Shown here piece by piece: positions 17,935-27,791 of a DNA stretch of 64,000 nt. This stretch comes from Planctomycetota bacterium (lineage in GTDB: Bacteria > Planctomycetota > Planctomycetia > Planctomycetales > Planctomycetaceae). Numbering within the stretch: position 1 is the stretch's first letter; each line of letters begins with the position of its first letter. The stretch lies in assembly GCA_003388505.1 (NCBI GenBank), contig QQVO01000036.1:124001-188000 (forward strand), given 5' to 3'. The notes under the pieces were generated by a model, which was given only the letters and a program-made list of their open reading frames with translations, was not told where the DNA came from and made no database searches. A program made the translations under genes and the position numbers.

Positions 17935-20928
17935 CTACTTGTCCGGAAACTCTGCCTCGCGCAGAAACGAGATCACGTCCGCAAGATCCTGCTGCGACAG
18001 CTTCTTTTCGAGCCCTTCCGGCATCAGCGACTTGTTGGAACTGCGAATCTCCTCCACATCGCTGCGGAGGATCGTCTGCTCCTTCCCCTCCGCCTGCTTC
18101 AACGTGATGCTCGTGGCCGTTTCCGAAGCAATGATGCCGGTGTGAATCGTGCCGCTGTTCGTCAGCACGACGAACTCCTGATAGTTCGGCGAGACTTCGC
18201 GGTTCGGATCGAGGATATGCAGCAGCAGTTCGGCCGGCGTCCGGTGCTTCACGGTTGCCAGGCTCGGTGCCACGTTGTGGCCTTCGCCGCCGAAACGGTG
18301 GCACGCGCTGCATTCCTTCCGGAACACCGCGTGTCCGCGCTCGAAGTCCGTCTCCAGCGTCAACGCCGACTGATACTCGTCCACGACCTCTTTCCGCGGA
18401 CTGGGGGCGTCTGCCGCAAAGACCTTGACCGCGCGGTCCCGAATCTCGGGAACCGCGCTGTTCATGTAGATGTCCCGCCGGCCCCACGAGATGTAACCGG
18501 GCGAAACGGTCCCTTCGGCAATGGCGTCCAGAACGGCGATCAACCAGTCGCTCCGCGACAGCAGCCGGTTCACCGTTTCTCCCCGCACTTCCGGAGTCAG
18601 CGAGGAATAGCGGTCCAGAATGATTTCCGCGACCTCCGGCTGAGGATAACTCGTGAGAGCGAGAATCGCGGCCTGCTGCAGTTCCGCCGGATGCTGCGGG
18701 CCCAGCAGCGCCGGCAGGGCGTCGCGCACCGGTTCGTACGGGCCGTAGGACAGGAGTTGGACCGCCAGCGTCCGGTCGGCGATCCCGGCCTCCGGATTCA
18801 TCGCCGTCTGCTCCGCGTCTGCGAGGAACGCGGCGATCAGCCGGCCCGCCGGCGAATTCTCGTCTTCGATGGTCGAACCCAGATGCGCGCCCGCGCGTTT
18901 ACGTCCCGCTCCGAGTGCGGCGATTACATATGTCTGCAGATTCGTTTCGAGGTCAACCGTTGCGTTCAGCAATGCCTGCACTTCGTTCGGGCTGCCGGCG
19001 ATTCCGATCGACATGCAGAGCTGCTGGATCATCGCCCGGCCTCCCTCGTCGCTGGTGAACTCGCGATCGGACAGGACGTCCAGCACAAACGGCAGGGCTT
19101 TGCGCGACAGCGAACTCAACACGGCCGTCCGCGTCCACGGATCACCTGCGTCTCGCGCCGCAATCGCGCGCAGCGCAGAGGTGACCCGCTCATCGTCGAC
19201 CTCGCCCAGCGTGAGCGCCAACTGGAACCGCACGCGGGGTGCTTCGTCACCTGTGAGACCGAGAACGGCTGTCAGCAGTTCCGGATTGTCGCCCAGACGC
19301 GGTTCGGCCAGCCGCACTGCATGCTCCCGCACGTGCGCATCGGCGTCCGAGAGCGCTTGCAGCAGATCGTCCGCCGTCAGCACGCCCAGGCCGTGCAGCG
19401 ACCACAGCGCGTGCAGCCGCGCCTCTGCGGCCTCGCTGCCGCTGAGCAGCTTCCGCAACGGATCGACCGCGGCCTGATCCTGCCGCTCGAAGATCAACCG
19501 GTGAGACGTTTCCCGCCACCACGCATTCGGATTCTCCAGTTCGGCAACCAGTTCTTTCGTGGAGGCATCCCCCAACCGAGGCGCCGGCGGCAGCTCGAAA
19601 CCCGCTGCATACTCGCCCGGAACAATCCGGTAAATCCGCCCGCGATCTCGGCCGCTGGTCAGGTCGACCCGCGCTTTGAGGTCGTCCGGCATCGACCACG
19701 GATGCTCGATCGTCTCGCGATACATGTCCAGCACGTGCAGCGTCCCGTCCGGCGCGTTGATGAAGTTCACCGGCCGAAACCAGTTGTCGGTCGACGCCAG
19801 GAACTCGACCCCGTCATGCGCCCGCTCGCCCACGAAGCTCACCCCCGCCGGCGACAACCGGTAGCGCATCACCAGATTCCCGGCCACCTCGCCGATAAAG
19901 GCATTCCCCCGGTACTCCTCCGGGTACGCGTGCCCCCGGTAGATCGTCACTCCGCTGGAAGACGTGACGAACCCGCTCGGCACCGTCGAGTCATGCGGCG
20001 GATTCGTCGCGGCGTCGGCCGCCTGCCGTGCCGCATTGATCACCCGCCACGGCTCCGGCGGACTGATCTGATACACCGCGATCGCGTCGCCCGCCGTCGC
20101 CACGTCGTTGAGTGCCGAGGCGACCGGCAGGGAAGGGTTTCGCTGCAGGTAACGGTCCGGCAGGACCACATGCTGCACCGGGTTGCGGATGTTGCACAGA
20201 AAGCGGTTGCCCCAGTCGTCAAACGTGTTGCCGAACCGCGCGCCCCCCGAAATCACTTCGAACTCCTCGGTGATCGGATCGAAACGGAAGTCGCTACGTC
20301 CCAGCCGTACCGGCTCGCCATCCTCGCTCCGTCGAATGTCCCCTCCGTTGCCCGAGCCGGCGGCGTAGATGTGATGATCGAGTCCCCAGTGCAGGTTGTT
20401 CATCACCGCCTGCACGTTGTACTTGCGGAAGCCGGTGAACACGGTCCGCCAGACGTCGGCCTTCCGGTCCCCGTCGGTGTCCTTCAGATACAGCACGTCA
20501 GGCGTCGCCGCCACGTAAACTCCGCCGTCCCACAGCGCGATCCCGGCCGGCCACGACAGCTCGTCGGCGAACACGGTCGACTTGTCGAACACCCCGTCCC
20601 CGTCCGTATCCTCCAGCACGCTGACCCGCCCCAGAGGTTCCGACGTCTGCTCCTGCCACGCCTGATCGTGCGACGGGTCGGAATACGGGTAATCGATCAT
20701 CTCCACCACGTACGCCAGACCGTTCTCGTCGTACTGCATCGCAATCGGATCGGCCACCAGCGGCTCGGCCGCAATCAACTCCGCCCGAAACCCGTCCTGC
20801 AGCACAATCGTCTCCACCGCCTCCCCCGGCTCCGTCGCCGGCACCCGCGGCAAAGGCTCCGCTTCCGCCGCCTGCCCCATGAGCGCGTAAAGGAGCAACA
20901 AACCTTCCGTTCCGGTGACCATGCTCAA
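17935..20928 (-). CDS. PVC-type membrane-bound dehydrogenase with HEAT repeats and cytochrome c domain
   Basis: 997 aa. The start is TTG at 20928 or ATG at 20922; GGGGAGG sits 5 or 11 nt upstream. The signal peptide GLLLLYALMGQAAEAEP precedes a sorbosone-dehydrogenase-like beta-propeller (about 35-430), with EPLVADPIAMQYDENG, LEDTDGDGVFDKSTVFAD, YLKDTDGDRKADVW and YAAGSGNGG. Helical HEAT-type repeats fill about 450-860. The C-terminal heme domain has CSACH near residue 873 and a Met-containing tail (NKSLMPEGLEKKLSQQDLAD). Such proteins are abundant in planctomycetes and are thought to oxidise sugars or polysaccharide parts in the periplasm. The substrate is unknown. The long opposite-strand frame over it is a shadow. 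Confidence 0.93.
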   Translation of the reverse strand: MSMVTGTEGLLLLYALMGQAAEAEPLPRVPATEPGEAVETIVLQDGFRAELIAAEPLVADPIAMQYDENGLAYVVEMIDYPYSDPSHDQAWQEQTSEPLGRVSVLEDTDGDGVFDKSTVFADELSWPAGIALWDGGVYVAATPDVLYLKDTDGDRKADVWRTVFTGFRKYNVQAVMNNLHWGLDHHIYAAGSGNGGDIRRSEDGEPVRLGRSDFRFDPITEEFEVISGGARFGNTFDDWGNRFLCNIRNPVQHVVLPDRYLQRNPSLPVASALNDVATAGDAIAVYQISPPEPWRVINAARQAADAATNPPHDSTVPSGFVTSSSGVTIYRGHAYPEEYRGNAFIGEVAGNLVMRYRLSPAGVSFVGERAHDGVEFLASTDNWFRPVNFINAPDGTLHVLDMYRETIEHPWSMPDDLKARVDLTSGRDRGRIYRIVPGEYAAGFELPPAPRLGDASTKELVAELENPNAWWRETSHRLIFERQDQAAVDPLRKLLSGSEAAEARLHALWSLHGLGVLTADDLLQALSDADAHVREHAVRLAEPRLGDNPELLTAVLGLTGDEAPRVRFQLALTLGEVDDERVTSALRAIAARDAGDPWTRTAVLSSLSRKALPFVLDVLSDREFTSDEGGRAMIQQLCMSIGIAGSPNEVQALLNATVDLETNLQTYVIAALGAGRKRAGAHLGSTIEDENSPAGRLIAAFLADAEQTAMNPEAGIADRTLAVQLLSYGPYEPVRDALPALLGPQHPAELQQAAILALTSYPQPEVAEIILDRYSSLTPEVRGETVNRLLSRSDWLIAVLDAIAEGTVSPGYISWGRRDIYMNSAVPEIRDRAVKVFAADAPSPRKEVVDEYQSALTLETDFERGHAVFRKECSACHRFGGEGHNVAPSLATVKHRTPAELLLHILDPNREVSPNYQEFVVLTNSGTIHTGIIASETATSITLKQAEGKEQTILRSDVEEIRSSNKSLMPEGLEKKLSQQDLADVISFLREAEFPDK

Positions 20929-23095: not shown

Positions 23096-23225
23096 GGAGG
23101 TTCCTCATTGGCTCAGACCTGGAAACCGACCCAAGATTCAATATGCCCCTCTGCTTGTCAACGCCGCACCAGGGCTTACCGGCTGAGTGCCGTGTGTGGT
23201 CAATGAAGCCGACACCCCAATCCCG

Positions 23226-24122: not shown

Positions 24123-25169
24123 ATGAAAACGCTCGCCCTCTCCATCACCGCCTTCGCTCTCACCGCCACCGCCGACGATCCCCCCCGGGACGACGCATAC
24201 ATCGCCGTCAAGGACGCCACGGTCTGGCCCAATCTCACCCGGTTGCCCAGCGGCGACATCCTGCTCGCCGGCCTCAATGTGCCCAGCCACGGCCAGCGCG
24301 AAGGCGACGTCGGCTGCTGGATCAGCAGCGATGATGGCGAATCGTGGGAGTCGGTCGGCCGCATGACGCAGCATGACCCCGATACCGTCCGCATGAATCA
24401 AGCCGTCGGCCTCAATCAGCACGGCCACATCGTCGGCCTCGTCAGCGGTTGGACCAACGTGCAGCAGGAGGGAGCGCCGAAGCGAGACGCCTTCCGGGAT
24501 GCGATCCTCAGGCCGTGGGTCTGCATTTCGGAGGACGAAGCGAGGAACTGGGACGTCACGAAGGAATTCCCGGTCGACCCGGCCGGGCGTGAGTTGATCC
24601 CCTTCGGCGACATTATCCTCTCCGCCGACGGCCGCCTCAACGTGTCCGCCTACTCCACCGCCTATTGGGACCATCCCGACCCCTGGGCGGCCTTTTTCCT
24701 CACCAGCGAAGACGACGGCCGCACCTGGCAGGTCGGCGCCAAGATCGACGACAACATCAACGAAACCGCCCTGCTGAACCTCGGCGACGGCCAGTGGCTC
24801 GCCGTCGCCCGATCCGGCCAGTTGACGCAGTACCGTTCCACCGACGACGGCGAAACTTGGACCAACGAAGGAGCCGTCACGAACGGCCGCCAGATCCCCG
24901 GACATCTGCTCAGGCTGAACGACGGCCGCCTCGTCTTCAGCTACGGAGACCGCTCGCAGGAGAAAGGCGTCAAAGTGGAAATCAGCGACGATCTCGGCAA
25001 AACCTGGAGCGCCCCCACCCACCTCGCCTCCATGCCCGCCACCGACGGCGGCTACCCATCCAGCGTCCAAAGAAACGACGGCAAGATCCTCACCCTCTTC
25101 TACACCAAGACAGAAGACACCTACGTCGTCAAAGCCATCATCTGGGAGGTCCCCTCAACGACCGAGTGA
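24123..25169 (+). CDS. Exported BNR/Asp-box protein (sialidase-like)
   Basis: 348 aa. The short signal peptide MKTLALSITAFALTATA is followed by a six-bladed propeller. Asp-boxes (S-x-D-x-G-x-x-W) are SSDDGESW (68-75), SEDDGRTW (195-202), STDDGETW (239-246) and SDDLGKTW (288-295), with a degenerate one at 136-143. This is the sialidase superfamily. Arg/Tyr/Asp catalysis for true neuraminidase activity cannot be confirmed, so 'exo-alpha-sialidase family' is the safe call. It lies 95 bp upstream of the UGA-containing FrnE-like gene, same strand. Confidence 0.88.
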   Translation: MKTLALSITAFALTATADDPPRDDAYIAVKDATVWPNLTRLPSGDILLAGLNVPSHGQREGDVGCWISSDDGESWESVGRMTQHDPDTVRMNQAVGLNQHGHIVGLVSGWTNVQQEGAPKRDAFRDAILRPWVCISEDEARNWDVTKEFPVDPAGRELIPFGDIILSADGRLNVSAYSTAYWDHPDPWAAFFLTSEDDGRTWQVGAKIDDNINETALLNLGDGQWLAVARSGQLTQYRSTDDGETWTNEGAVTNGRQIPGHLLRLNDGRLVFSYGDRSQEKGVKVEISDDLGKTWSAPTHLASMPATDGGYPSSVQRNDGKILTLFYTKTEDTYVVKAIIWEVPSTTE

Positions 25170-25198
25170 TCGCGCAACCGGAATCCAATGCCGATCAA

Positions 25199-25227
25199 CC
25201 TCTGCGTCTCTGCAACTCCGCGAGAAA
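25199..25227 (+). repeat. ctctgcgtctctgc-type repeat arm
   Basis: cctctgcgtctctgcaactc then cgcgaga. It belongs to the same short family as 24021-24047 and lies between the BNR gene and the candidate selenoprotein gene. Confidence 0.45.
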
Positions 25228-25263
25228 CCCCTTTCACAGCGACTCACTGACCCGAAGCCCCCC

Positions 25264-25893
25264 ATGCCGACCGAGCACACCATCAACCTCGAAGTCTTCT
25301 CCGACTACATCTGACCCTGGTGCTACCTCAGTACGGTCCGTATTGAACGACTTGCCCACGCGTACGACATCGCGGTGAAGTTCCGTCACTTCCCGCTACA
25401 TCCCGATACGCCCGTGGAAGGCCTCACGCTCGAGGAACTCTTCCGCGGCCGCAACATCGACATTCCTGCCGCACAGCAGCGGATGGCAGATTTGATGCGG
25501 GAAGCGGGTCTCCCTTACGGCGAACGGACGATGACCTACAACAGCCGTCTCGCCCAGGAACTGGCCGCCTGGGCCGACCAGCAACCTGGGGGTGAAGAAA
25601 TCCACGATATTCTGTTCAAGGCCTACTTCGTCGAAGGCCGGAACCTCGCCGAGATCGACACGCTCCTGGAGGCCGCGGAACAGGCCGGCCTCTCCGGAAC
25701 TGAAGCGCACGAAGTGCTCGAATCACGATCCTGCAGCGACCTCGTCGACGCCGACTGGAACCGCTCCCGGCAACTCGGCATCACCGGCGTCCCCACCTTC
25801 GTCGCCGGCGACCGCGGCGTCGTCGGCGCCCAACCCTACGAAGCCCTCCAACAACTCATCAAATCCGCCGGCGCACGCGCAATCTCTTCATGA
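25264..25893 (+). CDS. Candidate selenoprotein: FrnE/DsbA-family thioredoxin-fold oxidoreductase with UPWC active site
   Basis: 210 codons from ATG 25264 to the final stop, with one in-frame TGA at 25312-25314 (codon 17). The reading is MPTEHTINLEVFSDYI-TGA-PWCYL. FrnE-type DsbA proteins begin with (V)(F)SD(F/Y)(I/V)CPWCYLG, so the TGA replaces the first Cys of the CPWC redox motif. The rest is intact: FRHFPLHPDTPVEGLTLEEL, KAYFVEGRNLAEIDTLLEAA, LGITGVPTFVAGDRGVVGAQ (cis-Pro loop) and full family length (209 residues plus stop). UxxC in a thioredoxin fold is a known selenoprotein pattern. A hairpin at 25328-25346 has SECIS-like spacing. If Sec is not inserted, only a 172-aa product from GTG 25375 lacking the active site could form. 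The alternative is a recent C-to-TGA nonsense mutation or a sequencing error. selA/B/C/D are not in this window. Confidence 0.8.
25328..25346 (+). promoter_or_regulatory. SECIS-like stem-loop after in-frame TGA
   Basis: tcagtacg (25328-25335) pairs with cgtattga (25339-25346) over 8 bp, including one G-U pair, closing a 3-nt loop gtc. The loop starts 21 nt after the TGA. Bacterial SECIS elements lie directly downstream of UGA with an apical loop roughly 16-37 nt away and a G in the first loop positions, and both hold here. The stem encodes Ser-Thr-Val, where relatives usually have Gly-Lys-Arg, as if RNA structure constrains the codons. Confidence 0.65.
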
Positions 25894-26036
25894 CTGAGTC
25901 TTCTCAAAACTCAGGGTGGCCCGGACGCCCCCGCGTCCGGGTGGCGCAGCCACAAGATGCAGCCCCACAATCTTGAGAACTCACCAACCGGCCCAACTCC
26001 CGCGCCAACCAGTGACAGCACCATCCCATCTCCCTG

Positions 26037-27791
26037 CTACCGCGACTTCGCCAACTCGCGAATCTCATCAGCCGACAACGCGCCGCGATATAGCCGGAGG
26101 TCCTTCAGCTTCCCTCGCAAATGATCATGCGGCCCCGACCCGATCCGCAGCGGAGCATCGTTGCTCAGGTCGAACTGTTCTGCCTTGAACTCGCGGGACG
26201 CGGCCACCGGCTCTCCATCCACATAGAGCCGCAGCCGATCGGCATCTCGCACGGCGACGATGTGATGCCAACCGGACGGGAATTCGTGGTCGTAGGTGAC
26301 ATTCACTCCCGCCTCGAACGACCGGACATGTCCGGACGGCAGCGTTCCTGAGAAAAGACGCCCCTGATAAACGGCCATCGACCAGGCTCGTCGATAGATC
26401 ACATCCGGAGTGAAATCGACCCGGCCGACTGATTTCCACTGCTCATCGCCGTCATACCGATAGATCTCCGCCATCGGCAGCGTTCCCGCATAGAGCTTCC
26501 CGTTATAGACGTTCGGCCCCATCACCTCTTCCGCGTTGCCCAATCGTCCCGTGCTGATCCAGCCGTCCTCCCCTTCGTAACGATAAACCGTCCCCTTCGG
26601 CCACGTCCCGGCGTGTAGTTGCCCCTCGTAGATGACGAGCCCATAGACCTGCGTCGCGTCGCCCAGGATACCGGTGTGGCTCCAGCTCTCGCCGTCGAAG
26701 CGGTAGACCGCTCCCTCGTCGTACCCGGTGGCGTACATCGCTCCGTTATAGACGCAGAGCGCTTCGGGTCGCATACCGTCGGGCGAGCCGAGCGACGTCC
26801 ATTCGGTTCCCCCTTCGTAGCGGAACAGCGCCGGCTGGTAGAAGCCCGTGACGTAGAGCTGGCCGCGAAAGATCGCCATCCCGTTGACGCCGTCGACTCC
26901 CAGCAACTGCCCCAGGTCAACCCATTCGCCGTCTTCGTACCGGAAGACTTTTCCGCCGATGTGATGCGCGATCGTCGGTTCGAGCCCCGAGTAGTGCAGC
27001 AGCACGCGGGAGACTCCGACATAGAGATGGCCGTCGTAGCTCGCCATCGAGGTGACACCGTTGCTCTTCCACGGCGCGCCGAGGTCTTGCCACTCTCCCG
27101 TTCCGTCGTAGCGGTAGACGTGACCGTGGTCGTTGTTGGTCCAACCCTCCACCGTGCCGACGTACAGATCCCCGTCGTGCACTGTCATCGAGTGGACGAA
27201 GATCGAATTGCCGGGACGACCTTCGTCGCGCCACTCGTCCTCCTGCTTTCCGTCGTCGATGCCGAACTCCAGATGCCGGTAGTTCGACTGACTTCCGGTT
27301 ACCCCCGCATGATGCTTGATCGACAGATTGAATCCCCGGCGGGCCGCCGGATCGTACTTGTTGAGCAGGTCGCCGATCGCATCATCAAGTTCGGAGTCCG
27401 TGTGCACCCATGCGGCAATCGAGAATTCGCCGTCTCCGAAATTGAGCCGATCGTCGTCGTTCACGTCGAGCCGACTTGTCTGGCCGTCGAAAACGGCTCC
27501 CTCACGCGTGTACGCGAGGTCTTTGTCGCGTCCTGCGAGATTTGAGCCGGATGAGTCGTCGGCGTTCTCCGTGAGCGTCCAGTGTCCCACCATGTGAGGT
27601 TTCAGTTCGTCTTGCGCAGAGAGCGTCGATGAGGATGACATCACAAGCACCACAGAATACAGGGAGAGCACTGCTGCCGCGGACGGAGCACCGCGCCGGA
27701 AACGAAGCGCATTGATCGAAGTCACAAAGCCGGCCTGACGTCGTTCTAGTCGACGTCCAGGGGACGTTGCCGGGAAAGTGTTGCGTCTCAC
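26037..27791 (-). CDS. Exported LamG-like protein interrupted by a beta-propeller
   Basis: 584 aa from a GTG at 27791 with GAGGGG 9 nt upstream. The hydrophobic leader AAVLSLYSVVLVMSSSSTLS ends near SAQD. Residues about 66-195 form the first half of a concanavalin/LamG sandwich (VGHWTLTENADDSSGSNLAG, GEFSIAAWVHTDSELDDAIG). Residues about 198-485 are seven or eight repeats of the type 'YNGxLYAGTxxxAxxYRYDGxxxWxxxG'. Residues about 490-580 resume and finish the LamG fold (SGWHHIVAVRDADRLRLYVD, LKDLRLYRGALSADEI). The propeller thus looks inserted into a loop of the lectin domain. It is probably a secreted glycan-binding or structural protein with no catalytic motif recognised. Confidence 0.82.
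   Translation of the reverse strand: MRRNTFPATSPGRRLERRQAGFVTSINALRFRRGAPSAAAVLSLYSVVLVMSSSSTLSAQDELKPHMVGHWTLTENADDSSGSNLAGRDKDLAYTREGAVFDGQTSRLDVNDDDRLNFGDGEFSIAAWVHTDSELDDAIGDLLNKYDPAARRGFNLSIKHHAGVTGSQSNYRHLEFGIDDGKQEDEWRDEGRPGNSIFVHSMTVHDGDLYVGTVEGWTNNDHGHVYRYDGTGEWQDLGAPWKSNGVTSMASYDGHLYVGVSRVLLHYSGLEPTIAHHIGGKVFRYEDGEWVDLGQLLGVDGVNGMAIFRGQLYVTGFYQPALFRYEGGTEWTSLGSPDGMRPEALCVYNGAMYATGYDEGAVYRFDGESWSHTGILGDATQVYGLVIYEGQLHAGTWPKGTVYRYEGEDGWISTGRLGNAEEVMGPNVYNGKLYAGTLPMAEIYRYDGDEQWKSVGRVDFTPDVIYRRAWSMAVYQGRLFSGTLPSGHVRSFEAGVNVTYDHEFPSGWHHIVAVRDADRLRLYVDGEPVAASREFKAEQFDLSNDAPLRIGSGPHDHLRGKLKDLRLYRGALSADEIRELAKSR

Follow-up and report, generated by a model that had tools for sequence, protein, structure and literature searches.

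The question raised by this locus is whether an in-frame TGA at the active site of a DsbA-like gene from a planctomycete is decoded as selenocysteine (Sec) or ends translation. The gene lies in a window of 64,000 nucleotides, i.e. the whole stretch of DNA that was analyzed, from a member of the Planctomycetaceae. On the + strand, one frame runs from an ATG to the stop TGA at 25891–25893 and includes a single inner TGA at codon 17. When this inner TGA was taken as a residue, the frame encoded a protein of 209 residues. The sequence context (EVFSDYI-TGA-PWCYL) places the TGA on the first Cys of a CPWC motif, and the 209-residue reading preserves an intact cis-Pro loop (TGVPTF). Coordinates of all features are compiled in the table.

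Features of the predicted selenoprotein gene and its surroundings in the window
Feature	Position	Strand	Evidence
Complete DsbA/FrnE-type selenoprotein gene (predicted); 209 aa, Sec at residue 17, UPWC, TGVPTF	25264..25893	+	Frame, Pfam, FrnE structure, homologues
In-frame TGA, predicted selenocysteine codon, first position of UxxC	25312..25314	+	Column comparison with homologues
bSECIS-like hairpin, 25328-25334 paired with 25340-25346, loop 25335-25339 (GGUCC)	25328..25346	+	Pairing in homologues, RNAalifold
Codons 22-28, peak of synonymous conservation in the gene	25327..25347	+	83% identical codons vs 34% expected
V-P-T codons in GVPTF, the cis-Pro loop (Pro177) facing the active site	25789..25797	+	Pro177 invariant in 23/23 rows
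172-aa GTG-started ORF of a recoding-blind caller; without first strand and active site	25375..25893	+	Table-11 ORF list

The 209-residue reading matched the Pfam family DSBA (PF01323) with an E-value of 2e-36 over residues 9–199. Among solved structures, the FrnE protein 5cp1 (Deinococcus radiodurans DR0659 family; also PDB 5cnw) was matched over residues 6–197 (1.2e-23). The two proteins share the fold family, the position of the active site, and the cis-Pro loop. They differ in that FrnE carries CPWC with two Cys, whereas the window protein has the TGA aligned with the first of them. In the alignment of homologues, the protein sequence is conserved on both sides of the TGA, and P18, W19, and C20 as well as P177 are invariant in all 23 aligned rows. 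Since frnE of Deinococcus belongs to COG2761 (PMC1978522), the FrnE match would assign the window protein to the same group. None of the NCBIfam models reached its own cut-off on the window protein, so other genomes may well carry the gene under a wrong annotation. Membership in the family of DsbG-like proteins (NF041057, Rcas_1661 family), another thioredoxin-like (seleno)protein family of NCBIfam, was ruled out (42.1 bits; cut-off 190); a DsbG-like selenoprotein with UxxC has been listed (PMC13188914).

The initial annotation had described an open frame with one in-frame TGA at CPWC, a full-length member of the FrnE/DsbA family with an intact cis-Pro loop, and a 172-residue product from an internal GTG as the outcome of standard gene calling. 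Rereading of the frame, the family matches, and the table-11 ORF list bore out all three. The internal GTG, which opens this 172-residue stretch in the same frame, also allows for the gene to have two deliberate products, with selenium supply deciding at the UGA whether a full-length Sec enzyme or an internally started form devoid of the active site is made. In general, scarce selenium lets termination at UGA compete with the insertion of Sec, and such a switch would be compatible with the decoding of the TGA as Sec. As the short form would be without the first strand of the fold, we regard this switch as very improbable.

Genes for the Sec machinery, whose search had been proposed in the initial annotation, were all found in the host genome (6.78 Mb, 98.76% complete). 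A tRNA-Sec (selC) is located at C22:27134 (66.5 bits, cut-off 47) and was classified by ARAGORN as tRNA-Sec with anticodon tca. The model touched its cut-off (47 bits) at a second place (L002), which is a tRNA-Leu according to ARAGORN. On contig C33, selB (from position 23180, over cut-off), selA (528 bits, cut-off 268), and selD (285 bits, cut-off 125) lie within about 5.6 kb.

The selD gene forms the C-terminal part of a fusion (L020:289-2523), downstream of selB and selA on contig C33, behind a pyridine nucleotide-disulfide oxidoreductase domain. Both parts of the fusion exceeded the cut-offs of their models (TIGR03169, 369 bits vs 310; TIGR00476, 283 bits vs 125), and TIGR04369, the model for an oxidoreductase/SelD-related fusion, remained below its own (424 vs 700). 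An Ndh-SelD fusion type has been described in the GOS paper (PMC2398784).

Within the taxonomic family, 170 genomes were searched, and 45 of them had a match at an E-value of 1e-15. A close homologue was present in 17 genomes including the host itself, with identities of 55–68% for the other 16. All 17 close homologues have exactly one stop inside the match; this stop is a TGA in column 17 in every case, and none of the genes has Cys there. The remaining 28 matching genomes contain FrnE-like paralogues at 28–33% identity. Column 17 is Cys in the 10 paralogues that entered the tree, and one paralogue row (G026) includes an internal TAA. An order-level search, which also comprised 170 genomes, returned the same 17 Sec genes. 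A profile search of a sample of 392 genomes from the host's own phylum gave, among the matches listed, only the window gene itself (1/392 at 1e-40); as it considered the best candidates (at most eight) of each genome, and the 16 further carriers were either not among the sampled genomes or overlooked, this search is weak evidence on the range of the gene.

All 17 TGA carriers have selA over the cut-off, compared to 70 of the 170 family genomes (hypergeometric probability 7.7e-8 by genome). Counted by genus, selA was found in nine of nine carrier genera versus 31 of 58 (0.0019). Both probabilities are only rough because the genomes are related.

The same codon was detected in a second phylum. 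Of 395 genomes searched with a profile in Desulfobacterota, the phylum of Desulfosarcina cetonica, 63 matched and gave 64 rows, 53 with one TGA and 11 without a stop (one of the 11 does not cover the site). For 29 of the 30 loci fetched from these 64 rows, the TGA is in column 17, and the exception (L115, which duplicates L058) has Cys; the remaining 24 TGA rows stand outside this count.

Downstream of the TGA, a hairpin with a 7-bp stem begins after 13 nt, with 20 nt separating the TGA from the loop. Folded as single sequences, three segments downstream of the TGA were no more stable than shuffles (z = 0.05, −0.58, and 0.76), and the informative tests of the hairpin are the comparative ones. 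No SECIS family was reported by Rfam for positions 25000–26200 at E-values up to 5. For the comparison, 51 nt from the TGA onward were aligned, the helix occupying columns 17–23 and 29–35. Across the 17 family genes, 99.2% of the helix cells are paired (reached by 0 of 500 shuffles; slid controls, 16.8–42.0%), and three of the seven pairs show changes on both sides (4 of 500 shuffles). Since these compensatory changes occur in only three sequences (L025, L026, and L039), they may stem from just two or three events. Among the five pair measures, the number of further pair types was the one that did not rise above shuffles (263 of 500). RNAalifold, unprompted, gave the same helix.

After the 29 Desulfobacterota genes had been added (46 rows, 45 of them distinct), 96.5% of the helix cells were paired (0 of 500 shuffles), compared to 21.9–49.5% for slid controls. 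In this two-phylum set, four pairs have changes on both sides (9 of 500 shuffles), corresponding to 17 such cells versus 2.4 in shuffles (0 of 500), and further pair types were again not above shuffles (91 of 500). Nine of the 11 unpaired cells are U-U at one position. The loop nucleotide G25 is invariant in all 46 Sec genes. Published bacterial SECIS elements have a small apical loop with a guanosine and lie immediately downstream of the UGA (PMC1088965); the window hairpin, with its small G-containing loop just past the UGA, fits this description. The corresponding columns of 17 Cys homologues are still paired in 61.3% of cells, which exceeds their slid versions (29.4–47.9%), so part of the pairing is explained by coding constraint.

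A second footprint was found at the level of codons. Where pairs of the 17 genes share the same residue, codons 22–28 agree in 83% of 746 comparisons, while 34% would be expected from codon usage. Among 189 seven-codon windows (median excess 0.04), this was the best. The same codons in seven Cys homologues were identical in 16 of 42 comparisons, with 13.9 expected. Resampling of synonymous codons, with the protein kept, yielded p-values for the observed pairing of 0.0009–0.066 across the 46 Sec genes (median 0.013), and p was below 0.05 in one of 28 Cys genes. Such a peak of synonymous conservation on the hairpin would be as expected for a bacterial SECIS.

These observations bear on the possibility that the TGA is a nonsense change, real or a sequencing artefact, in a former CPWC gene that now yields only the product started at the internal GTG, as the ORF list in the same frame would permit. 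The recurrence of a single TGA in column 17 of 17 family homologues and 29 of the 30 fetched Desulfobacterota loci, the lack of any other stop inside the match in the homologues, the conserved protein on both sides of the TGA, and the hairpin with its synonymous footprint all argue against decay or error, and we consider it extremely unlikely. Decoding as another amino acid free of selenium (e.g. Trp or Cys by a near-cognate tRNA, a type of UGA readthrough that does occur in bacteria) is just as improbable, given that TGA apparently serves as a normal stop codon in this host (the window gene terminates with one), that a tRNA-Sec with anticodon tca is encoded together with the Sec machinery, that all 17 carriers have selA, that the 28 Cys rows examined have the usual counterpart of Sec in this column, and that the SECIS-like hairpin would be left without a role.

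The window gene is thus very probably a genuine selenoprotein gene of the DsbA-like thioredoxin-fold family, FrnE type, with Sec predicted at residue 17. The proposal of the initial annotation that the TGA codes for Sec is supported by the machinery genes, the conserved TGA, and the hairpin with its covariation and synonymous footprint; the column comparison with relatives that it had suggested returned TGA in all 17 close homologues, and no further stop was present in them. SelB in complex with Sec-tRNA(Sec) would bind the hairpin and decode the UGA as Sec17. Together with Cys20, this residue would form a UPWC active site beside cis-Pro177. The protein is predicted to act as a thiol oxidoreductase by dithiol/disulfide (selenenylsulfide) exchange, presumably in the direction of a reductase or isomerase rather than an oxidase. 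Its N-terminus opens immediately on the first strand of the fold, which makes a cytosolic location most likely.

Selenoproteins of this kind are already known. A 2005 study of the Sargasso Sea reported DsbA-like UxxC selenoproteins (nine sequences, COG2761; PMC1088965), so the suggestion in the initial annotation that a Sec form of the FrnE family may be new did not hold. Later reports include (i) DsbA-like selenoproteins in Anaeromyxobacter dehalogenans, Desulfovibrio desulfuricans, and Desulfotomaculum reducens in 2006 (PMC1794560); (ii) DsbA 1–3 selenoproteins with 63, 18, and 5 sequences in 2008 (PMC2398784); (iii) 45 DsbA-like selenoproteins in 41 organisms in 2016 (PMC5029168); (iv) two DsbA-like selenoprotein sequences in Asgard archaea (PMC11227280); and (v) a 'DsbA-like protein form 1' with PF01323 and UxxC in a review table of 2026 (PMC13188914). 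The window protein shares PF01323, UxxC, and a predicted SECIS just past the UGA with the DsbA-like selenoprotein of the Sargasso Sea and form 1 (PMC1088965, PMC13188914). This likeness was established from the published descriptions of the proteins. Searches of the literature turned up no selenoprotein named FrnE, and the link between FrnE and selenoproteins runs via COG2761. Planctomycetes were not found named as hosts in the available portions of the literature on DsbA-like selenoproteins. Six putative selenoproteins have been reported for planctomycete P1 (PMC4807772), and the main text of that paper has no mention of DsbA; neither does the main text of the deep-Sep paper (PMC12013277). 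The present analysis adds members from the host's family, a SECIS common to both phyla, and the placement of Cys members within the Sec clade.

Outside the family, a scan of contigs of GTDB genomes gave 32 loci. The nearest of these were Cys forms (57% identity in Gemmatimonadaceae, 47% in Desulfobulbaceae, and others); as one of the peptide patterns contained CPWC, the scan disfavored Sec forms. Column 17 was TGC or TGT in all 28 Cys rows examined, which comprise 10 of 13 fetched paralogues and 18 of the 32 scan loci. L050–L052 and L071–L084 were left out of these rows and of the pairing and tree counts; most of them have CPWC, L076 has CSYC, and L081 and L083 are without Cys at the site. The notion that Cys forms accompany a loss of the Sec machinery was only partly borne out: selA was found in 10 of 15 genomes tested behind the 32 scan loci and in six of eight for the nearest loci (L053–L060). 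One of these Cys homologues, L054 (717 on), lies beside the Gemmatimonadaceae one and stems from a draft MAG; its frame stops 55 codons after the site, reflecting a frameshift, an error, or a pseudogene.

A tree was calculated from 73 proteins, with the Sec residue entered as unknown and Cys kept in the Cys rows (L054 was left out, and L115 was dropped because it is the L058 gene). The 46 Sec rows and seven Cys rows formed one clade of 53 rows (100/97), and the 10 Cys FrnE-like paralogues of the family formed a separate one (100/100). The seven Cys rows are placed within or at the base of the Sec clade, some of them long-branched, and the bootstrap had not converged. Two Cys rows from Geobacteraceae were found inside the Desulfobacterota Sec group (96/80; branch length 1.16). 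For four labels placed on the tree, seven changes were needed, with three as the least possible number.

Some of the Cys genes may retain traces of the hairpin. The Geobacteraceae gene L059 (L059:3025-3075) keeps all seven hairpin pairs (p = 0.004), L058 of Desulfosarcina cetonica (L058:3028-3078) keeps six of seven (p = 0.059), and L068 had a resampling p of 0.068. With one of 28 tests below 0.05, relic hairpins in Cys homologues are suggestive only. A selA search in the genome records of L059 and L058 gave no match. The pattern in these two genes suggests a Sec-to-Cys reversion with a SECIS remnant, an event already described for other families (PMC1794560). Possibly, a mainly Sec-containing orthologous group of FrnE type spans the host's family and Desulfobacterota, with Sec as the ancestral state and the SECIS retained in both phyla, and its few Cys members would be reversions, two of them (L059 and L058) with a hairpin remnant; we put forward this history tentatively, at slightly less than an even chance.

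Two other features of the window were recorded. A PVC-type heme-binding CxxCH protein (TIGR02604, 305 bits) is encoded at 17935–20928 on the minus strand, in line with a planctomycete as the likely host. Also on the minus strand, a sub-threshold Rfam match to L19_leader (26118–26161; 31.3 bits, gathering threshold 36) lies inside an ORF at 26037–27791 and is probably a chance match in coding sequence.

The window gene leaves the existing knowledge of selenoproteins unchanged. For annotation, it exemplifies that gene callers treating TGA as a stop lose the active site of the enzyme. For the family, the 46 Sec genes sharing a SECIS, together with Cys relatives inside the same clade, constitute a usable case for the gain and loss of Sec in one active site.
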